Part shown: piece by piece, positions 4,385 to 27,911 of the stretch | Layout: every line of letters starts with the position of its first letter | Numbering within the stretch: the first letter of the stretch is position 1 | IMG/VR virus record: IMGVR_UViG_3300039098_000100 | Location: 1 to 39,786 of that record | Source of the DNA: a virus | DNA length: 39,786 nucleotides | Strand: one strand, 5' to 3' | Translations under genes and position numbers: made by a program | The notes under the pieces: generated by a model | What the model was told of the DNA's origin: nothing | Databases searched by the model: none | What the model saw: the letters and a program-made list of their open reading frames with translations, nothing else

Positions 4385-5089
4385 ATGGAATATATTGATT
4401 TTTTAAAAAGAGAAGGTTTAGTTATTGAAAAAATATTAGATGCTAGAATATATATAGATCCAGGACACGGCGGTGATGATCCAGGGGCGGTGAGTGGTGA
4501 TTTTGTAGAAAGGGATATAAATTTGGTTATGGCTCTTTCTTTAGCTGGTTTCTTAAAGTTTTTAGGCGCTGATATCAAATTGTCAAGAAAAAATAATTTG
4601 GTAAGTAAAAATATAACGATGCGATGTAATGAAGCGATAAAATGGAAAGCCGATTTAATAATATCGGTTCATAACAATGCTGGCAATGGTGATGGTTTTG
4701 AAATTATTCACACCATTTTTACCGAAAATAGTATCGGTGATGAAGTAGCGAAATCTATTGCCGATGCCGTGATTAAATATACTGACCAAAATTTTAGAAG
4801 ATATATTCAGGAAAAAAATAGTCGCGACGAAGATTATTTTGGTATTAATAGATTATCCGGAAGTATACCTTCGCTTATAACCGAATTTGCTTTTTTAGAT
4901 AATGTAGAAGATAGAAAGATTATTGATAGTATTCCGGAACAGGAGAATGCAGGAGTTGTATTGGGTGTTGGAATTGCTAAATATTACGGAGTTTTAAAGG
5001 ATGTTGAAATTAAAAAAACTACTTCAATTTCTAGCGATATTGAACAAATTATTAATTCGTTGATAAGGCTTAAAGATAAGCTTGATTAA
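4385..5089 (+). CDS. Endolysin, N-acetylmuramoyl-L-alanine amidase (Amidase_3)
   Basis: A 234-residue zinc amidase that would cut the bond between MurNAc and L-Ala of peptidoglycan at lysis. The Amidase_3 metal and catalytic residues are visible: DPGHGG with His28, Glu42 in VERDIN, His96 in SVHNNA, and Glu167 in TEFAFLDN. No signal peptide is seen, so export would depend on the holin. The catalytic domain fills most of the protein; the C-terminal 40 residues are a short helical tail rather than a recognisable wall-binding domain. An upstream in-frame ATG at 4373 is part of the GGGAGG ribosome binding site, so the ATG at 4385 is the better start. The holin follows after 13 bases. Confidence 0.92.
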   Translation: MEYIDFLKREGLVIEKILDARIYIDPGHGGDDPGAVSGDFVERDINLVMALSLAGFLKFLGADIKLSRKNNLVSKNITMRCNEAIKWKADLIISVHNNAGNGDGFEIIHTIFTENSIGDEVAKSIADAVIKYTDQNFRRYIQEKNSRDEDYFGINRLSGSIPSLITEFAFLDNVEDRKIIDSIPEQENAGVVLGVGIAKYYGVLKDVEIKKTTSISSDIEQIINSLIRLKDKLD

Positions 5090-5102
5090 AAGGAGGTAAA
5101 AT

Positions 5103-5384
5103 ATGGACCTAATGAAATTTATATCGGAGCAGTATTTAATTATTGCGGCTTTCATTTGGGTATTCGGGAGAGTATTAAAAATGATACCTTTCGTGCTAAA
5201 TAAGTTTATACCATTGATTTTGTTTGTTATTGGTATGATGATTGGATTGTTACTTCATTATTACGAAGTGGTAACTATCGTTATTTTAAACGGCGGTATA
5301 GCTGCGGGAGTCGCCATGTTCGTTTATGACGCTATAAGTGATAAGACTAAAATTAAAATACAAAAAAAAGAAGCGGCTGATTAG
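5103..5384 (+). CDS. Holin, Phage_holin_5_2-like
   Basis: A 93-residue membrane protein preceded by AAAGGAGG. Hydrophobic segments lie at about residues 8-24, 35-52 and 57-76, followed by a charged tail rich in Lys. The core pattern (KFIPLILFVIGMMIGLL, then ILNGGIAAGVAMFVYD) resembles the Phage_holin_5_2 family. Its position directly after the endolysin supports a role in membrane permeabilisation. It is the last plus-strand gene before the convergent terminase and ends at a terminator. Confidence 0.8.
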   Translation: MDLMKFISEQYLIIAAFIWVFGRVLKMIPFVLNKFIPLILFVIGMMIGLLLHYYEVVTIVILNGGIAAGVAMFVYDAISDKTKIKIQKKEAAD

Positions 5385-5396
5385 TCGCTTTTTTAT
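5371..5396. terminator. Bidirectional terminator between holin and terminase
   Basis: An 8-bp stem AAGCGGCT/AGTCGCTT (one G-T wobble) with loop GATT, flanked by an A run on the left and TTTTTT on the right. It can terminate both the late transcript and the convergent minus-strand terminase transcript. It overlaps the 3' ends of both genes. Confidence 0.85.
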
Positions 5397-6793
5397 ATGT
5401 TTAAAAATATAGTTTCGCCAGATACTGGAACTGTGTCTGCATTTAATGGATTGTATGGCTTAATTTCAATTTCATTATTTCTAGGTGCTATTGGATTCAG
5501 CATACAAAGATATCGCACTTCATCATAGATATGGTCCTCTTTGGTTGTATCTATATCTTCAATATCCCTTTCAGCTGTTTGCAATATAGGGAATGTTCTT
5601 ATTGTATCTGTACAATTATTGAAAATATACATCATAGGTATACCGCGGTCGTCAAACGCTAATCGGTAATGAATTTGCATTTTACCAGGTATCCTCTTGT
5701 TATCTCCTTTTTCAAAATAAATTCCGTAGTTTTCAAAAGTTTCGGCTATACTTACGCCTCTGCTTTCATCCCAAATAGACGGGTCCGCAACTCCTAATAT
5801 TCTACGATCGCCATAATATTTATCTTCAATTTCTTTTATTTTTTTAGCTTGTTTATTAGGCGTCCATTTCAAGCCGACGTTTGGTTCTCCATTTGATCCG
5901 TAAAATTCCCTTATTCTATACAATCTGCCTTGAGTATCGACAGCCCACCAACCTACCGAAAATGGTCTACTATACCCAAAATCGTAACTTCGATATATTT
6001 TCCATGTATCTGGAATTCTAAATGACTCAATTACATGTGTAAACATTCTAGTTTTGTAATTGGCAATATCGTTTCTCCACTCCGCGAATGCTTGACCTTC
6101 GAATATATCCCAATCTCCATACAGGAAAGCTCGTTTTTGCATTTCCGGTAAGTTTTCTAATCTTTTTACATAATTAGGATCGTTCTTCATCAATATATCG
6201 TTGTCATAAACTGACGCCGGAATAAATTGTATTATATCATCTGTAACAGGATCTACTATTATATTCTTACCGTATGTTGTAGCTGAAATAAAATCATTTT
6301 TTACCCAGTTATGGCCAATTCCACCAGGATTACAAGTTCCTCTAAACCTAGTTGGAAATCCTGACGGAGAACGCAAACACGAAAGCAATACTTGTATGGT
6401 AGCTTTTTCATGTTTAGTAAGTTCATCTACTCCCACCCAATCCATAGATCTGCCTTGATATCCTTCTGCATCGGAGAAATTTCTAATATATCTAAATTTA
6501 ATAACAGTTCCATTAATTAAAGTTGCAATATGCTTACTTCCGTTATATTTATATAATTCTTTCGGTATATTATCTTTGAACGTTTTTATAATATTTGCTT
6601 CCAGATCGTCGTATGTCTCTCTAAATAAATATATACTAGCACCAACATGTTCAAAACCATACGCTACAGCTTCCATAACTAAAGCGTGAGATTTTCCACC
6701 ACCTTTAGCTCCGCCGTATACAACTTGGTCCGCTGATGATGCGTGAAATAAATTTTGTTTTGAATTAGGTTGATAAGTTATTTCTACATTCAT
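5393..6793 (-). CDS. terL: Terminase large subunit (TerL)
   Basis: A 466-residue DNA-packaging motor with ATPase and nuclease domains. Walker A is GGAKGGGKS (27-35) and Walker B plus catalytic Glu is VGVDEL (120-125). The RNase H-like nuclease acidic residues are Asp271 in RSYDFGYS, an Asp in GVADPSIWD and one near EDHIYDEVRY. The start is supported by AGGAAG upstream. Unlike most phages it is not next to the small subunit (22841-23404), and it is transcribed against the flanking late and early operons from its own promoter. It ends inside the bidirectional terminator shared with the holin gene. Confidence 0.95.
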   Translation of the reverse strand: MNVEITYQPNSKQNLFHASSADQVVYGGAKGGGKSHALVMEAVAYGFEHVGASIYLFRETYDDLEANIIKTFKDNIPKELYKYNGSKHIATLINGTVIKFRYIRNFSDAEGYQGRSMDWVGVDELTKHEKATIQVLLSCLRSPSGFPTRFRGTCNPGGIGHNWVKNDFISATTYGKNIIVDPVTDDIIQFIPASVYDNDILMKNDPNYVKRLENLPEMQKRAFLYGDWDIFEGQAFAEWRNDIANYKTRMFTHVIESFRIPDTWKIYRSYDFGYSRPFSVGWWAVDTQGRLYRIREFYGSNGEPNVGLKWTPNKQAKKIKEIEDKYYGDRRILGVADPSIWDESRGVSIAETFENYGIYFEKGDNKRIPGKMQIHYRLAFDDRGIPMMYIFNNCTDTIRTFPILQTAERDIEDIDTTKEDHIYDEVRYLCMLNPIAPRNNEIEIKPYNPLNADTVPVSGETIFLNI

Positions 6794-12920: not shown

Positions 12921-13703
12921 ATGGACATTATAAGCTTTAGCGGAGGCAAAGATAGCACAGCAGTAGTATTAAAAATGCATGAAATGGATCAACTAAAAGA
13001 TAAAATTATATTGCATATATCAATGCAAGAATGGGAACACCCGCAAATGAACGAACATATTAAAAAAGTTAGAAAATATATTAATCAAGAAATAATAATA
13101 ATAAACGCATTTAAAAATGGTCCAACTAAAAAAATGCTTAATCATGTAGTTAATAAACGTGATAATACAACTCAAAACGGTTACTGGTGGTGTGGAAAGT
13201 CCAGATGGGGTACAACTTATAAGATGCAAGCAATAAAACGTTTCTACAAGCAATTTGACGAAGTAGTAGAGTATATAGGTTATGCAACAGATGAAAAATC
13301 ACCAAGTAGACAACTATTAATTGAACAACATAAGAAAGGAGAGTTAAAAAATATAGTATATCCATTGGTTGATTGGGATATGACAGAACAAGATGCTTTA
13401 AAATATTGTTATGATAAAGGTTTCGATTGGGGCGGACTGTATGAATTATATAATAGAGTAAGTTGCTGGTGTTGTCAAAATAACAATTTGAAAGAATTAA
13501 GAAATATGTATGAATATGAACCTGAAAAGTGGGAAAAGTTAAAGCAACTAGATAAAGAAGTTGAGAAAAGAGTTATTGAAAAACACGGCGAATATAAAAA
13601 AGAATTTAGATATAAAGCAAATTATTCATTTGAAGAATTAGAAGAAAAATTTAAAGAAAGACAACTGAATCTATTCGGTAAAATTAACGAGGTGAAAAAA
13701 TGA
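12921..13703 (+). CDS. PAPS-reductase-family (PP-loop) enzyme
   Basis: A 260-residue protein of the PP-loop ATP-pyrophosphatase superfamily. The PP-loop is SGGKDST (7-13). Cys91 in WWCGKSRW and a CxCC cluster at 182-185 (CWCCQN) resemble the Fe-S or nucleophile cysteines of PAPS-reductase/DndC-like proteins. Phage members are widespread but their reaction is not settled: sulfur transfer to nucleic acid, nucleotide chemistry and anti-defence roles have all been considered. It follows the candidate RNA with RBS GAGAGG and shares an ATGA overlap with the next gene. Confidence 0.8.
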   Translation: MDIISFSGGKDSTAVVLKMHEMDQLKDKIILHISMQEWEHPQMNEHIKKVRKYINQEIIIINAFKNGPTKKMLNHVVNKRDNTTQNGYWWCGKSRWGTTYKMQAIKRFYKQFDEVVEYIGYATDEKSPSRQLLIEQHKKGELKNIVYPLVDWDMTEQDALKYCYDKGFDWGGLYELYNRVSCWCCQNNNLKELRNMYEYEPEKWEKLKQLDKEVEKRVIEKHGEYKKEFRYKANYSFEELEEKFKERQLNLFGKINEVKK

Positions 13704-23445: not shown

Positions 23446-25317
23446 ATGAAGAAAACAGCACGTGAAAAAGTATTGAACGATGCAGAATTTGGTCAGAGAG
23501 TGAAAAAAAATGAAAACGAAACAAGTAATACTCTTAGTGAAACAGCAGAATATGACAAATATATCGAAATAATGAAAGGTTATCAATCTGCAAAGCAACC
23601 ATTAGAAGAAAATATTATCGCAAATGAAAAGTGGTACAAATCAAATCATTGGGATCTAATTCGTGGAAAAGGTAAAACAAATAAGACTGATGCACGTCCG
23701 GAACCAGTAACTGCTTATTTATTTAGTATTTTGAGTAATAAGCATGCAGATGCAATCGATAATTTCCCAGCACCTAATATCTTAGAACGAGAAGATTCGG
23801 ATAAAGAAACGGCGTTAGAACTTACTGAAATTATTCCTGTTATATTAGAAAGAAATGAGTTCCGCGAAACGTGGGATCACGTGTGGTGGTACAAATTAAA
23901 GCAAGGCACAGGCGTATATGGTGTCTTTTGGGATAACGAAGCAGGCGATGGGCTTGGAGATATTGCAATTAAGAAATTAGATCTACTTAATATCTATTGG
24001 GAACCGCGCATAGAAAAAATAGACGAAAGTAGATACTTATTCGTTACGAAAATGATGGATTTAGATTTAGTTAAGAAAGAATATCCTGAAAAAGCAACAA
24101 AATTAAAAATAGACAGTAATTTTAAACCGCTTAATTACGAAGGGAATCAAGAAGATAGCGAAAACCAAATATTAATAATAGACGTTTATCACCGCGAAAA
24201 TGGACGCCTGGACTTAGTTAAGATAGCGGGGGGCTGTGTGTTGGAAAGCACAGAAGATAACTCGGAATATCCAGACGGCCTGTACAAGCATGGTAAATAT
24301 CCGATTATATTTGATCCGTTATTCCCAATGGAAGATTACCCGGTCGGTTTCGGTTTCATCGATATAGTCAAAAGTCCTCAAATTTACGTCGATAAGTTGG
24401 ACCAAATAATATCTGAAAATGCTTTAGAATCGGGTAGAGTTAGACATTTGGTATCAAAAGGATTGGGCGTTAACATCGAAGACTTCAACGACATGAGTAA
24501 GAGAGTCGTTGAATGTGAAGGTAGTATTACGCAAGAAAAATATCAACAATTACAATCAAAACCTTTAGATGCTTTTATAGTTAATCATCGCGAAAACAAA
24601 ATACAGGAAATGAAAGAGATTGCAGCAGATAACCAATTTAGCAGAGGCGAAGGTGGAAAAGGTATAACAGCAGCGTCCGCGATACAAGCGCTACAAGAAG
24701 CAGCTTCTAAAGTGTCGCGTGATATGATTTCTAGTTCGTATCGAAGTTACACGCAAATTATTTATCGTGTAATGTCTATAATTTCAACTAATTACACAGA
24801 AGAAAGAAAATTTAGGATTACAAACAAATTCGGAAAGCCAGATTATAAAACGTTTGGCAACGAAAAGTTATTGGCGCAGAAATTGCCGAAAGCTTTTGAG
24901 AACGAGGGAATGATGGAAGACGAAACCGGCGTAATGATAGATGATCCAGATTATCAACAAGCCGAAAGAATTCCTGTTTTTGATATTACTGTAATGCCTG
25001 AAAAGGATAATCCATTCTCAAGAACTGCAATGAATGAGTTTGCTAAGAATATGTTTCAGATTGGAATGTTTAATCCGGAGTTAACTCAACAAGCATTGAT
25101 CACGCTGGAAATGATGCACTTTGAAGGTAGAGAAAAGGTTATGGAGCAAATCAAAGAACAAGGGGATATGTTCCAACAAATGCAAAAAATGAAAGAGACA
25201 ATGGATAAAATGGCCCAAATAATAGAACATTTTCAAGGAAAGGGAAGTGGTGATGGTCAAGGTTTAGGAAATGGTCAAGGAAGAGGTGCGACGATTGATA
25301 GAAATTTACAAGAATAA
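23446..25317 (+). CDS. Portal protein, P22-like
   Basis: A 623-residue portal, the ring at the capsid vertex through which DNA passes. The sequence fits the P22-type portal family: an N-terminal NEKWYKSNHWD, RPEPVTAYLFSILSNKHADAI, WDHVWWYKLKQGTGVYGVFW, PIIFDPLFPMEDYPVGFGFID, and a long helical stem and barrel with FSRGEGGKGITAASAIQALQ. The C-terminus is Gly/Gln-rich (GKGSGDGQGLGNGQGRGAT), as often seen after the barrel. GAAAAGGGGG points to ATG 23446. Its end overlaps the protease gene. Together with gp4- and gp10-like genes downstream it indicates a P22-like tail machine. Confidence 0.85.
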   Translation: MKKTAREKVLNDAEFGQRVKKNENETSNTLSETAEYDKYIEIMKGYQSAKQPLEENIIANEKWYKSNHWDLIRGKGKTNKTDARPEPVTAYLFSILSNKHADAIDNFPAPNILEREDSDKETALELTEIIPVILERNEFRETWDHVWWYKLKQGTGVYGVFWDNEAGDGLGDIAIKKLDLLNIYWEPRIEKIDESRYLFVTKMMDLDLVKKEYPEKATKLKIDSNFKPLNYEGNQEDSENQILIIDVYHRENGRLDLVKIAGGCVLESTEDNSEYPDGLYKHGKYPIIFDPLFPMEDYPVGFGFIDIVKSPQIYVDKLDQIISENALESGRVRHLVSKGLGVNIEDFNDMSKRVVECEGSITQEKYQQLQSKPLDAFIVNHRENKIQEMKEIAADNQFSRGEGGKGITAASAIQALQEAASKVSRDMISSSYRSYTQIIYRVMSIISTNYTEERKFRITNKFGKPDYKTFGNEKLLAQKLPKAFENEGMMEDETGVMIDDPDYQQAERIPVFDITVMPEKDNPFSRTAMNEFAKNMFQIGMFNPELTQQALITLEMMHFEGREKVMEQIKEQGDMFQQMQKMKETMDKMAQIIEHFQGKGSGDGQGLGNGQGRGATIDRNLQE

Positions 25318-25594
25318 CAATTCTGTAATCATAAAAGGCCATGCAAATTACAATCCTGGCAATGATATAGTGTGTAGTGCTGTTTCAACGCTGACATTCA
25401 CCTTAATTGGATCGTTGACAGAATTTAATATCAAACACGAAACATCGCTGGATGTTAAGGGAGTTAGCACAATACAAATATTTGAGAAGAATAAAACTGA
25501 AAAAATGCAAAAGGATATAATTCTAAAGATTGTATTTAATGGTTTGCAACAAATTGCAGACAAATATCCTTTAAATGTAAAAATATTGTCATAA
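25295..25594 (+). CDS. Prp-type cysteine protease (YsxB-like), putative capsid maturation protease
   Basis: A 99-residue homologue of Prp, the ribosomal-processing cysteine protease. The family's two motifs are present: GHANY with the catalytic His16, and GNDIVCSAVS with the catalytic Cys27. A TTG start at 25295, just after AAGAGGTG at 25281, gives a start (MIEIYKNNN) that fits the family length; the ATG at 25271 lies inside the portal gene. In Bacillota, Prp removes the N-terminal extension of ribosomal protein L27 at a LNLQxFA motif, and staphylococcal phage scaffold and capsid proteins are cut at the same motif by host Prp. Here the gene sits between portal and scaffold, and both scaffold and capsid carry matching motifs (inference: they are its substrates). 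Confidence 0.85.
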   Translation: MIEIYKNNNSVIIKGHANYNPGNDIVCSAVSTLTFTLIGSLTEFNIKHETSLDVKGVSTIQIFEKNKTEKMQKDIILKIVFNGLQQIADKYPLNVKILS

Positions 25595-25597
25595 AAT

Positions 25598-25626
25598 TTG
25601 TGCTTTCGATTCAATGAGAGTATAAT
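25598..25626 (+). promoter_or_regulatory. Possible promoter for scaffold and capsid
   Basis: TTGTGC (25598-25603), a 17-base spacer and TATAAT (25621-25626) in the 130-base gap before the scaffold. The leader that follows contains a small hairpin CACTA-TATG-TAGTG and a purine-rich, less AT-rich stretch. It could raise capsid gene transcription. Confidence 0.45.
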
Positions 25627-25724
25627 TAGTGTATAAAATATAAATGTATCACTATATGTAGTGGTTGACGCACCGGAAAGACGGTAGAAAGACGCGCTGG
25701 ACAGACAGCAGGAAGGAGAAACAA

Positions 25725-26660
25725 ATGAAAAAAGTTGATATGCTAGATCTAAGACTATTTGACGAAGAGGGAGATGGTGGAACGCAAACTTCCAATCTAA
25801 CAGATGGCGGGTCTGGAAATGGCGAAGAACCTGGTGACGCTAGCCAGAATCAACCACCCGAAGCACCCGAAACAATCGTTTATGGTAAACAATCTGACGG
25901 TGATCAATCCGCAGAAGAAAATAAAACTGGAGACGATGGGAAAGGCGAAGAGGGAAACAAACAAGAATACGACCTCGAAACTTTGCTAGGTGATGAAAAC
26001 TTTAAGAAGCAATATGACGAACGTGTTCAAGGAATTATTAAAGATAGATTTAAGAATACGAGCAAAAAAGTGGAAACTGCAGATAAATTCCAACCAACTA
26101 TGGATTTGTTAATGGAACGATACGGAATCGGAAATATGGACGAATTGATTTCTAAACTGGAAAATGAATCATTCGAAGAAATGGCGTATGCGGAGAACGT
26201 TGATGTTGATACTTACAAGAATACCCAAAAGCTTCAGCGCGAAAATAAAGCGTTAAAAGGTAGACTTGATTCAGAAAAAGCACAAAAGAATATTGATAAT
26301 AGAGTTCAAGGTTGGTTTGCAGAAGCGAAAGAGATACAAAAGGAATTCCCTGATTTCGATTTAAAAGAAGCATCTAAGGACCCAGGATTTTCGAAACTAC
26401 TTAACGCCGGAATAAGTGTAGACGCTGCATTCAAAGCAACTAATTTCGAGAAAATTCTTAATAACCGTGTGACTTCTGCAGCAAAGAAAGCCACTGAAAA
26501 TACGATTAATAACGTAAAAAATAGGAATTCGAAAATAAAAGAGAATGGATCTAAAAACACACCCGGCACAATTTATAAGACTAATGCAAAAAGTTTGTCG
26601 AAAAAAGATCGTGCAGAAATAGCAAGACGGGTGAGTAACGGAGAAACGATCAAATTTTAG
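25725..26660 (+). CDS. Scaffold protein with N-terminal Prp-type cleavage motif
   Basis: A 311-residue protein in the scaffold position. The N-terminus MKKVDMLDLRLFDEEG contains LDLRLFD (7-13), like the L27 Prp site. Residues 15-80 are an acidic Gly/Asn/Pro-rich disordered stretch; the remainder is helical and coiled coil with a Lys/Arg-rich C-terminus, a usual scaffold layout in which the basic end contacts the capsid. RBS GGAAGGAG, ATG 25725. An upstream in-frame TTG at 25665 would add 20 basic residues but lacks an RBS. Confidence 0.75.
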   Translation: MKKVDMLDLRLFDEEGDGGTQTSNLTDGGSGNGEEPGDASQNQPPEAPETIVYGKQSDGDQSAEENKTGDDGKGEEGNKQEYDLETLLGDENFKKQYDERVQGIIKDRFKNTSKKVETADKFQPTMDLLMERYGIGNMDELISKLENESFEEMAYAENVDVDTYKNTQKLQRENKALKGRLDSEKAQKNIDNRVQGWFAEAKEIQKEFPDFDLKEASKDPGFSKLLNAGISVDAAFKATNFEKILNNRVTSAAKKATENTINNVKNRNSKIKENGSKNTPGTIYKTNAKSLSKKDRAEIARRVSNGETIKF

Positions 26661-26690
26661 AATTCCACCTATAAAAAAAGGGGGAAACAA

Positions 26691-27911
26691 ATGCCAAAAT
26701 ATATATTAAACTTAAGATTATTCGATACACAAACTACTGAAACACCTGGTTTGTCTGATGAAATGAAAACGTACTATGATGATTATATGATAGATAATGC
26801 TGTTCCGAATTTAATTCATGACCAATTCGGCCAGGAAAGACCGATTCCAAAGGGAAAAGGTAAAACGGTTGAGTATAGAAAATATGCTCCATTGGCAAAA
26901 GCTACTACACCATTGGTTGAGGGTGTTACTCCATCGGGAAATAGCTTAAATGTATCTACTGTAACTGCAACTGTTAAACAATATGGTGACTTTATTGAGT
27001 TATCTGATGTATTAATTTTAACAGCTATTGACAACAACTTGGTGGAAGCAACTGTTTTATTAGGTGATCAAGCTGGCCAGACATTAGACACAATCGTTAG
27101 AGAAATCATTAACGCTGGAACTAATGTACAGTATGGCGCAAATGCTGTATTAGCAAGATATTTATTGACTGGTGGTGTTGGTGACACAACAGACAACTAC
27201 TTAAATGTCAAAACTGTTAAATATGGAGCTAGAAACTTAAAAAATAACTTAGCTAAAAAGATTAATGGTAATTATGCAGCAATCATTCATCCGGATGTAG
27301 CTTTCGACTTAACGGAAGATGATAGATGGTTAGATCCTCATACTTATCAAGATACTAGCAATATTTATGAAGGTGAAATCGGAAAAATTGAAGGCGTTAG
27401 ATTTGTTGAAACAACAGAAGCTAAAATATTCCATGCAGAAGATTTATCGGAATCAGCTAGAAATTTAACAGTTGCTTCATATGCAACAAAAGTAATTACT
27501 ATTTCCGAAACACTTACAAGTGCGGACCAAACTGCATTGATAGGAAGATCTATAATTGTAGACGGATACAAGTATACAATTGCTAGTGCTACTTCGGACA
27601 CTATCACTATATCTGAATCACCTACACATGATCCTGCTGGGTCTGATGTTGTGTATCCAGGTGAAGCGGGAGCTGCTGGAAGAGATGTATATTCTACATT
27701 GATTATTGGCGCAAATGCCTACGGAACGACTAAGGTTACCGGTGGTGGGTTACAAACTATCGTGAAACAATTAGGTTCTGCCGGCACATCCGACCCGTTG
27801 AATCAAAGGGCGACTGTTGGCTGGAAAGCAATTAAAACTGCTGTCATTTTAGTCAACGAGTATATGGTAAGAGTTGAAACTACTTCTGAATTTGAAAGTG
27901 GTTCGAATTAA
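26691..27911 (+). CDS. Major capsid protein, N4-gp56 family
   Basis: A 406-residue HK97-fold capsid protein of the N4-gp56 family. Supporting parts: TVEYRKYAPLAKATTPLVEG, YGDFIELSDVL (about 98-109), YAAIIHPDVAFDLTED (195-210), and GWKAIKTAVILVNEYMVRVE at the end. The N-terminus MPKYILNLRLFDTQT carries LNLRLFD (6-12), which matches the L27 Prp site better than the scaffold does. Residues of about 250-325 (VITISETLTSADQTALIGR...) look like an inserted beta-rich domain that could decorate the capsid surface. RBS AAAGGGGG. 30 bases after the scaffold. Confidence 0.9.
   Translation: MPKYILNLRLFDTQTTETPGLSDEMKTYYDDYMIDNAVPNLIHDQFGQERPIPKGKGKTVEYRKYAPLAKATTPLVEGVTPSGNSLNVSTVTATVKQYGDFIELSDVLILTAIDNNLVEATVLLGDQAGQTLDTIVREIINAGTNVQYGANAVLARYLLTGGVGDTTDNYLNVKTVKYGARNLKNNLAKKINGNYAAIIHPDVAFDLTEDDRWLDPHTYQDTSNIYEGEIGKIEGVRFVETTEAKIFHAEDLSESARNLTVASYATKVITISETLTSADQTALIGRSIIVDGYKYTIASATSDTITISESPTHDPAGSDVVYPGEAGAAGRDVYSTLIIGANAYGTTKVTGGGLQTIVKQLGSAGTSDPLNQRATVGWKAIKTAVILVNEYMVRVETTSEFESGSN

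Follow-up and report, generated by a model that had tools for sequence, protein, structure and literature searches.

Does a phage that encodes a Prp-type cysteine protease process its own head proteins with it? According to previous descriptions, phages whose heads are trimmed by Prp borrow an essential host enzyme for this purpose. The window analysed here, which represents a complete virus record (39,786 bases), suggests another arrangement. The initial annotation, made from the sequence alone, had proposed that its phage brings both the enzyme and two substrates, a scaffold and a capsid protein with matching motifs at their N-termini.

The protease gene and its product

The protease gene (25295..25594, + strand) encodes a protein of 99 residues. 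Its reading frame starts with TTG, and an alternative ATG at 25271 would give a product of 107 residues. Directly upstream lies a gene for a P22-type portal protein (23446..25317, + strand; PF16510, E 3e-19), the 3' end of which is overlapped by the 5' end of the protease frame.

The protein matches the Pfam profile Peptidase_Prp (PF04327) with an E-value of 2.8e-16 and 60 bits, above the curated cut-off of 27, and it also matches phrog_4478 ("peptidase") of the PHROGs collection. The AF2 model has a mean pLDDT of 93.3 and a strand-strand-helix-strand-strand-helix-strand (E E H E E H E) fold, which is the order of the C108 family (PMC9405229). All 12 PDB matches of this model at E ≤0.001 are Prp-family structures, the best being 7KLD (TM-score 0.78) and 7JVS, both of Staphylococcus aureus Prp with substrate. 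A profile of 64 phage Prp sequences matches S. aureus Prp with an E-value of 7.2e-17. The reading frame contains the segment GHANYNPGNDIVCSAVS, in which the codons at 25340-25342 and 25373-25375 specify His16 and Cys27, respectively. His16, Asp24, Cys27 and Ser31 align with His22, Asp31, Cys34 and Ser38 of S. aureus Prp, and Gly15 and Gly22 are the counterparts of its Gly21 and Gly29; the roles of Gly21, Gly29, Asp31, Ser38 and the catalytic His and Cys are taken from PMC9405229. The active-site loop from His16 to Cys27 (25340..25375, + strand), with a spacing of 11 residues, was delimited by this alignment to His22/Cys34, by the invariance of both residues in 64 divergent phage Prps, and by the spacing statistics given below.

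By all sequence and fold features tried, the protein belongs to the Prp family (MEROPS C108), and proteolytic activity is predicted for it. Profile, predicted fold and catalytic residues thus agree with the initial annotation, which had placed a Prp-type protease with His and Cys motifs before the scaffold gene. The protein is not the housekeeping Prp that processes ribosomal protein L27: its gene sits between portal and scaffold genes, not between rplU and rpmA, and its His-Cys spacing is 11, not 12.

Putative cleavage sites in the scaffold and capsid proteins

The next gene (25725..26660, + strand; ATG at 25725) encodes a protein of 311 residues that matches phrog_13908 (function unknown); its position between the portal and protease genes and the capsid gene suggests that it is the scaffold. 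The major capsid protein of 406 residues is encoded at 26691..27911 (+ strand; phrog_1357, E 6.5e-83; PF25209). A motif search found an N-terminal Prp-type site in both proteins. In the scaffold it reads LDLRLF↓D (25743..25763, + strand; the arrow marks the predicted scissile bond), with the predicted cut after Phe12 of the N-terminus MKKVDMLDLRLF↓DEEGD. In the capsid protein it reads LNLRLF↓D (26706..26726, + strand), with the predicted cut after Phe11 of the N-terminus MPKYILNLRLF↓DTQTT. Both have Arg at P3 and Asp at P1', as against Gln and Ala in sites of the type found in phage 80alpha.

The two motifs named in the initial annotation are the only ones of their kind in the window. A DNA pattern for this motif type gave exactly two matches in the 39.8 kb, i.e., the scaffold and capsid sites, where 0.08 were expected, and two matches were obtained in 0/100 shuffles. 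The two 21-base stretches differ at seven bases, which affect five codons synonymously and one D/N codon, so that it is the peptide that has been conserved, rather than the DNA that has recently been copied.

Scans of the whole window with Rfam and for tRNAs gave no matches, and a scan for promoters and terminators around the cassette found no more than in shuffles. Elsewhere in the window, the large terminase gene (5396-6793, - strand) lies on the opposite strand, with ~16 kb between it and the small terminase gene, and 12921-13703 contains a phosphoadenosine phosphosulfate reductase-like gene, possibly an auxiliary metabolic gene.

Distribution and origin of the cassette

A tblastn search in named phages yielded two Prp relatives only, and IMG/VR was therefore scanned instead. 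Scans with smaller Prp alignments produced 157 phage Prp loci (designated here by L numbers), 110 of which remained after removal of those that were >90% identical. With an untrained regular expression, 45/103 first and 39/88 second downstream genes were seen to have the motif close to their start, as compared with 4/336 for the four upstream genes. When a position matrix, for which the downstream genes had served as the training set, was applied to all positions, an N-terminal LxLQxFA-type motif was found in 84/106 first and 68/100 second downstream genes and in 5/378 upstream genes, counts that are inflated by kinship among the loci. The consensus of the matrix is [LFM][ND]LQ[LM]F↓A, and P1 is Phe in 144/148 cases. 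When the proteins at the capsid position were clustered by BLAST without their first 35 residues, seven clusters contained at least three loci, and the motif was present on 7/7. It is, therefore, not merely one inherited start region.

Thus, protease and motif co-occur in related IMG/VR loci, and the cassette is a widespread arrangement that is not particular to the phage of the window. The proposal that the phage brings its own enzyme and two substrates is supported by these loci, in which cleavage is predicted, but the arrangement is no peculiarity of this phage, and phage Cp-1 offers a precedent (see below).

The motif is also found on later structural genes, perhaps encoding tail proteins (L116, at 9763; the fourth gene after Prp in L061, L065 and L080), for which a counterpart was reported in phage phi13. 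One contig binned as Heimdallarchaeota (L166) carries a close relative of the Clostridia-type cassette, which is probably a binning error.

When 154 Prps from phages and 26 L27-linked Prps from hosts were placed in one tree, a single branch separated the two groups (support 93/90). Recent capture of a host enzyme is not favoured by this tree, in which, with an alignment of 108 columns, inner forks are poorly resolved and few of them are settled.

In 17 of the 110 representatives (L099-L103, L105-L111, L114, L115, L135, L013, and L018), the Prp domain is in frame with the scaffold without a stop codon in between. In each of the 17, an LQxF[A/G] site follows the Prp domain at a distance of 7-22 residues, and in L018 and L100 another site occurs ~47 residues later. 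In most fusions, an ATG just before the site makes separate initiation possible. However, L114 has no start codon within 20 codons upstream of the site, and L111 has only a GTG, 13 codons before it. The layout would fit an enzyme that releases the scaffold from itself through cleavage at the motif.

Covariation of putative cleavage sites and active-site loop

The sites of the two substrates change together. P1' is identical in scaffold and capsid protein in 109/148 pairs, where 58.2 were expected (5000 permutations, largest value 77), P3 in 92/148 (59.7 expected) and P2 in 92/148 (66.7 expected); since shared ancestry inflates the pair counts, these permutation values are descriptive. Matched pairs include VNLRLFD/VNLRLFD (L248), SLLTLFS/NILTLFS (L190), NFIQLFA/DFIQLFA (L302), and KKLHTHMFD/KKLHTQMFD (L011). 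P1 Phe is replaced in both proteins by His in L314 (LDLHLHD/MDLHIHD), by Leu or Met in L118 (FNLQLLA/INLQLMS), and by Leu in L127 (LNIQLLA/LNIQLLA).

In the S. aureus enzyme, the P3 Gln is contacted by Gly29 and Asp31 of the loop that extends from His22 to Cys34, and the P1' pocket accommodates small residues only (PMC9405229). The length of this loop varies with the type of site. The His-Cys spacing is 12 in all 75 parsed phages with F↓A in both proteins (A/A), in 5/5 phages with Ser at P1' in both (S/S), and in 24/26 hosts. Among phages with F↓D in both proteins (D/D), it differs from 12 in 25/28 and equals 12 in 3/28 (Fisher p 6e-21 for A/A versus D/D); after clustering at 70%, the ratio of spacing 12 to other spacings was 56:0 in A/A and 3:22 in D/D phages. 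The D/D group comprises 14 cases with spacing 11, mostly with NPGND and including the window, eight with spacing 8 (GHATGxxxVC), and one each with spacings of 6, 13 and 15. Their sites mostly lack the P3 Gln. As three phages (L094, L098, and L163) combine F↓D sites with an unchanged spacing of 12, the loop change is not strictly required.

Thus, the enzyme loop, the scaffold site and the capsid site appear to form one co-evolving set, and bacterial Prp and the phage enzyme have probably diverged through drift of the latter. From the covariation of loop and site, the enzyme of the window would be expected to favour the LRLF↓D sites of its own substrates, with host L27 not a natural substrate. 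The question raised in the initial annotation, whether the enzyme acts on host L27, is answered by this prediction only. The earlier suggestion that Asp in place of Ala marks recognition by the phage enzyme gains support from the same covariation.

Hosts with and without Prp

A scan with a capsid alignment located prophages in 80 genome records, almost all of which are bins of Clostridia. Of 60 genomes that were searched for L27, 58 contained it; these host genomes are mostly metagenome bins, and single cases are open to contamination or gaps. A long L27 with [LIFM]QxFAHKKG is present in 41 hosts ([LIFM]QxFA in 41/41), with a Prp gene usually adjoining, and 17 hosts have a short L27 starting with MAHKKG or MASKKG.

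Among the short-L27 hosts, the capsid motif is present in 7/7 with a cassette Prp and in 0/10 without. In five of them (L168, L171, L175, L187, and L210), the Prp of the prophage is the only one in the genome. The capsid motifs in these five, scored more loosely than by the position matrix, are ISLAVFD, LNLRLFS and MLLQLFA, and, slightly further in, VLWLFD in L168. In L172 and L185, the Prp has no Pfam match, but a Prp-like reading frame lies at the same place (hhalign probabilities of 97 and 92%, respectively) and the motifs are present. These two loci, the former of the same type as L272, had been considered as D-type phages without Prp, which was rejected when re-examination revealed a divergent Prp. 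L179 and L312 were not counted as exceptions, their upstream regions being without recognisable phage genes.

Of the ten motif-less hosts without cassette Prp, nine have no Prp genome-wide and one (L206) has a Prp elsewhere. L204 and L221 retain portal, scaffold and capsid genes, L194 retains portal and capsid genes, six have scaffold and capsid genes without a recognisable upstream portal gene, and the locus of L191 is incomplete. Motif-less capsid proteins of such Prp-less relatives start near the predicted mature N-terminus (MSNTQTTHLTAEN..., L204). Among the 17 short-L27 hosts, no case was found in which the motif is present while both phage and host lack Prp. A phage-borne Prp would explain why a short L27 and the lack of a Prp in the host are no obstacle to such phages.

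The portal-less scaffold and capsid homologues in L193, L197, L201, L202, L205, and L206 (at about 4500-6200) are possibly remnants or a domesticated pair; in L202, they come after an EF-Tu gene.

Proposed mechanism and alternatives

Together, these observations make it very probable that the phage of the window uses its own C108 Prp during head assembly to make a single cut close to the N-terminus of both the scaffold and the major capsid protein. That the enzyme acts on both sites is suggested by their co-occurrence, by covariation, by the gene fusions and by the Prp-less hosts. It would cut after the Phe of xLRLF↓D, the bond being deduced from the F↓A bond cut in phage 80alpha and in L27, and would remove 12 residues from the scaffold and 11 from the capsid protein, presumably while the head is assembled. 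The enzyme lineage has probably changed its recognition loop along with the sites, with P3 Gln lost, P1' Ala replaced by Asp, and the spacing reduced from 12 to 11, and it would thus be largely separate from host L27 processing.

Alternatively, the housekeeping Prp of the host could make the cuts, as it does in 80alpha, with the phage Prp being redundant or a back-up. Most hosts of related prophages do have a long L27 with Prp beside it, and host-like LQxFA motifs occur in a small number of loci in which no phage Prp was detected (L173, L209, L211, L218, and L224). However, some hosts of Prp-bearing prophages have a short L27 and no other Prp. Moreover, the sites of the window lack the P3 Gln and have Asp at P1', in contrast to the [LIFM]QxFA of host L27 in all long-L27 hosts, and a size limit on P1' has been described for S. 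aureus Prp (PMC9405229). We therefore regard this explanation as improbable.

Even less probable is that the motif has been kept as a peptide for assembly or chaperone docking, to which Prp binds without cutting being the point. In 80alpha, variants with uncleavable scaffold and capsid proteins are viable, and pre-cleaved scaffold yields no capsids (PMC5744158). Docking alone would, however, not account for the invariant His and Cys of the 64 phage Prps, for the position of the site between protease and scaffold in the fusions, or for the motif-less capsid proteins of Prp-less relatives, which begin close to the predicted mature N-terminus. That the matching motifs are due to chance or to a copied start region, unrelated to the Prp gene, is hardly credible. 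It is easy to read too much into short motifs, and start regions could be shared between adjacent head genes, but the enrichment over upstream genes, the presence of the motif on unrelated capsid clusters, the conserved peptide over diverged DNA, and the coupling to loop length all speak against it. As the source of the twin motifs in the window, chance or recent DNA duplication was rejected, given the 0.08 matches expected, the synonymous differences and the seven clusters.

Many Clostridia phages bring a Prp of their own, and enzyme and both substrates appear to evolve together. On balance, we also lean towards the existence of phage Prp specificity classes, in which an altered His-Cys loop and F↓D sites without P3 Gln would act independently of host L27 and serve Prp-less hosts, and, in some phages, Prp and scaffold would form a self-cutting polyprotein. 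Such phages offer a series of natural variants from which the contributions of P3, P1' and the mobile loop to Prp specificity could be worked out. As Prp has been proposed as a target for antibiotics, natural loop variants with changed sites may also be useful for inhibitor work.

Comparison with known systems

Prp of S. aureus (YsxB; 4PEO, 7KLD, 7JVS) shares with the enzyme of the window the fold, the His/Asp/Cys/Ser active site and the recognition of hydrophobic-x-L-x-x-F, but it is encoded by a housekeeping gene between rplU and rpmA, has L27 as a substrate and a His-Cys spacing of 12. In a literature search that had Wall (2015, 2017) outside its scope, no description was found of a phage Prp beside scaffold and capsid genes with matching sites, nor of Prp-scaffold fusions or of covariation between loop and site. 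The head and tail reading frames of the window that were scanned gave no match to a serine-type prohead protease in PHROGs.

Streptococcus phage Cp-1 provides an earlier example of a maturation protease of the C108 family that is encoded by a phage. According to PMC12445089, which cites Martin (1998), gp13 of this phage is its own C108 protease and is needed for maturation; it removes 48 residues from the N-terminus of the major head protein. As in the window, where trimming of the head protein is predicted, the enzyme is encoded by the phage. However, Cp-1 gp13 is very divergent (PF04327, E 0.0024, below the cut-off), its gene is not beside that of the scaffold, and an LxLQxF motif was looked for at the start of the Cp-1 head protein and found to be absent. 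The Dorea phage DO134P1 (OP172779.1), the nearest isolate detected, shares the gene order of the window, with Prp followed by a scaffold (NLQLFA) and a capsid protein (LGLQVFT), but its capsid protein is unrelated, its sites are F↓A or F↓T and the His-Cys spacing is 12. Its Prp gene (L007, 5013-5306) has a non-ATG start and is unannotated in the GenBank record.

In staphylococcal phage 80alpha, scaffold and capsid protein are cut by the host Prp between F and A; the intact N-terminus of the scaffold is needed, and cleavage is dispensable (PMC5744158). The window shares with 80alpha the two substrates, the N-terminal LxLQxF↓A-type site in both, and an enzyme of the Prp family. Whereas the enzyme is that of the host in 80alpha, in the window it is encoded by the phage beside its substrates, with LRLF↓D sites and a loop that is one residue shorter. 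By analogy, the system of the window would work like that of 80alpha, except that the phage supplies the enzyme and the sites are altered.
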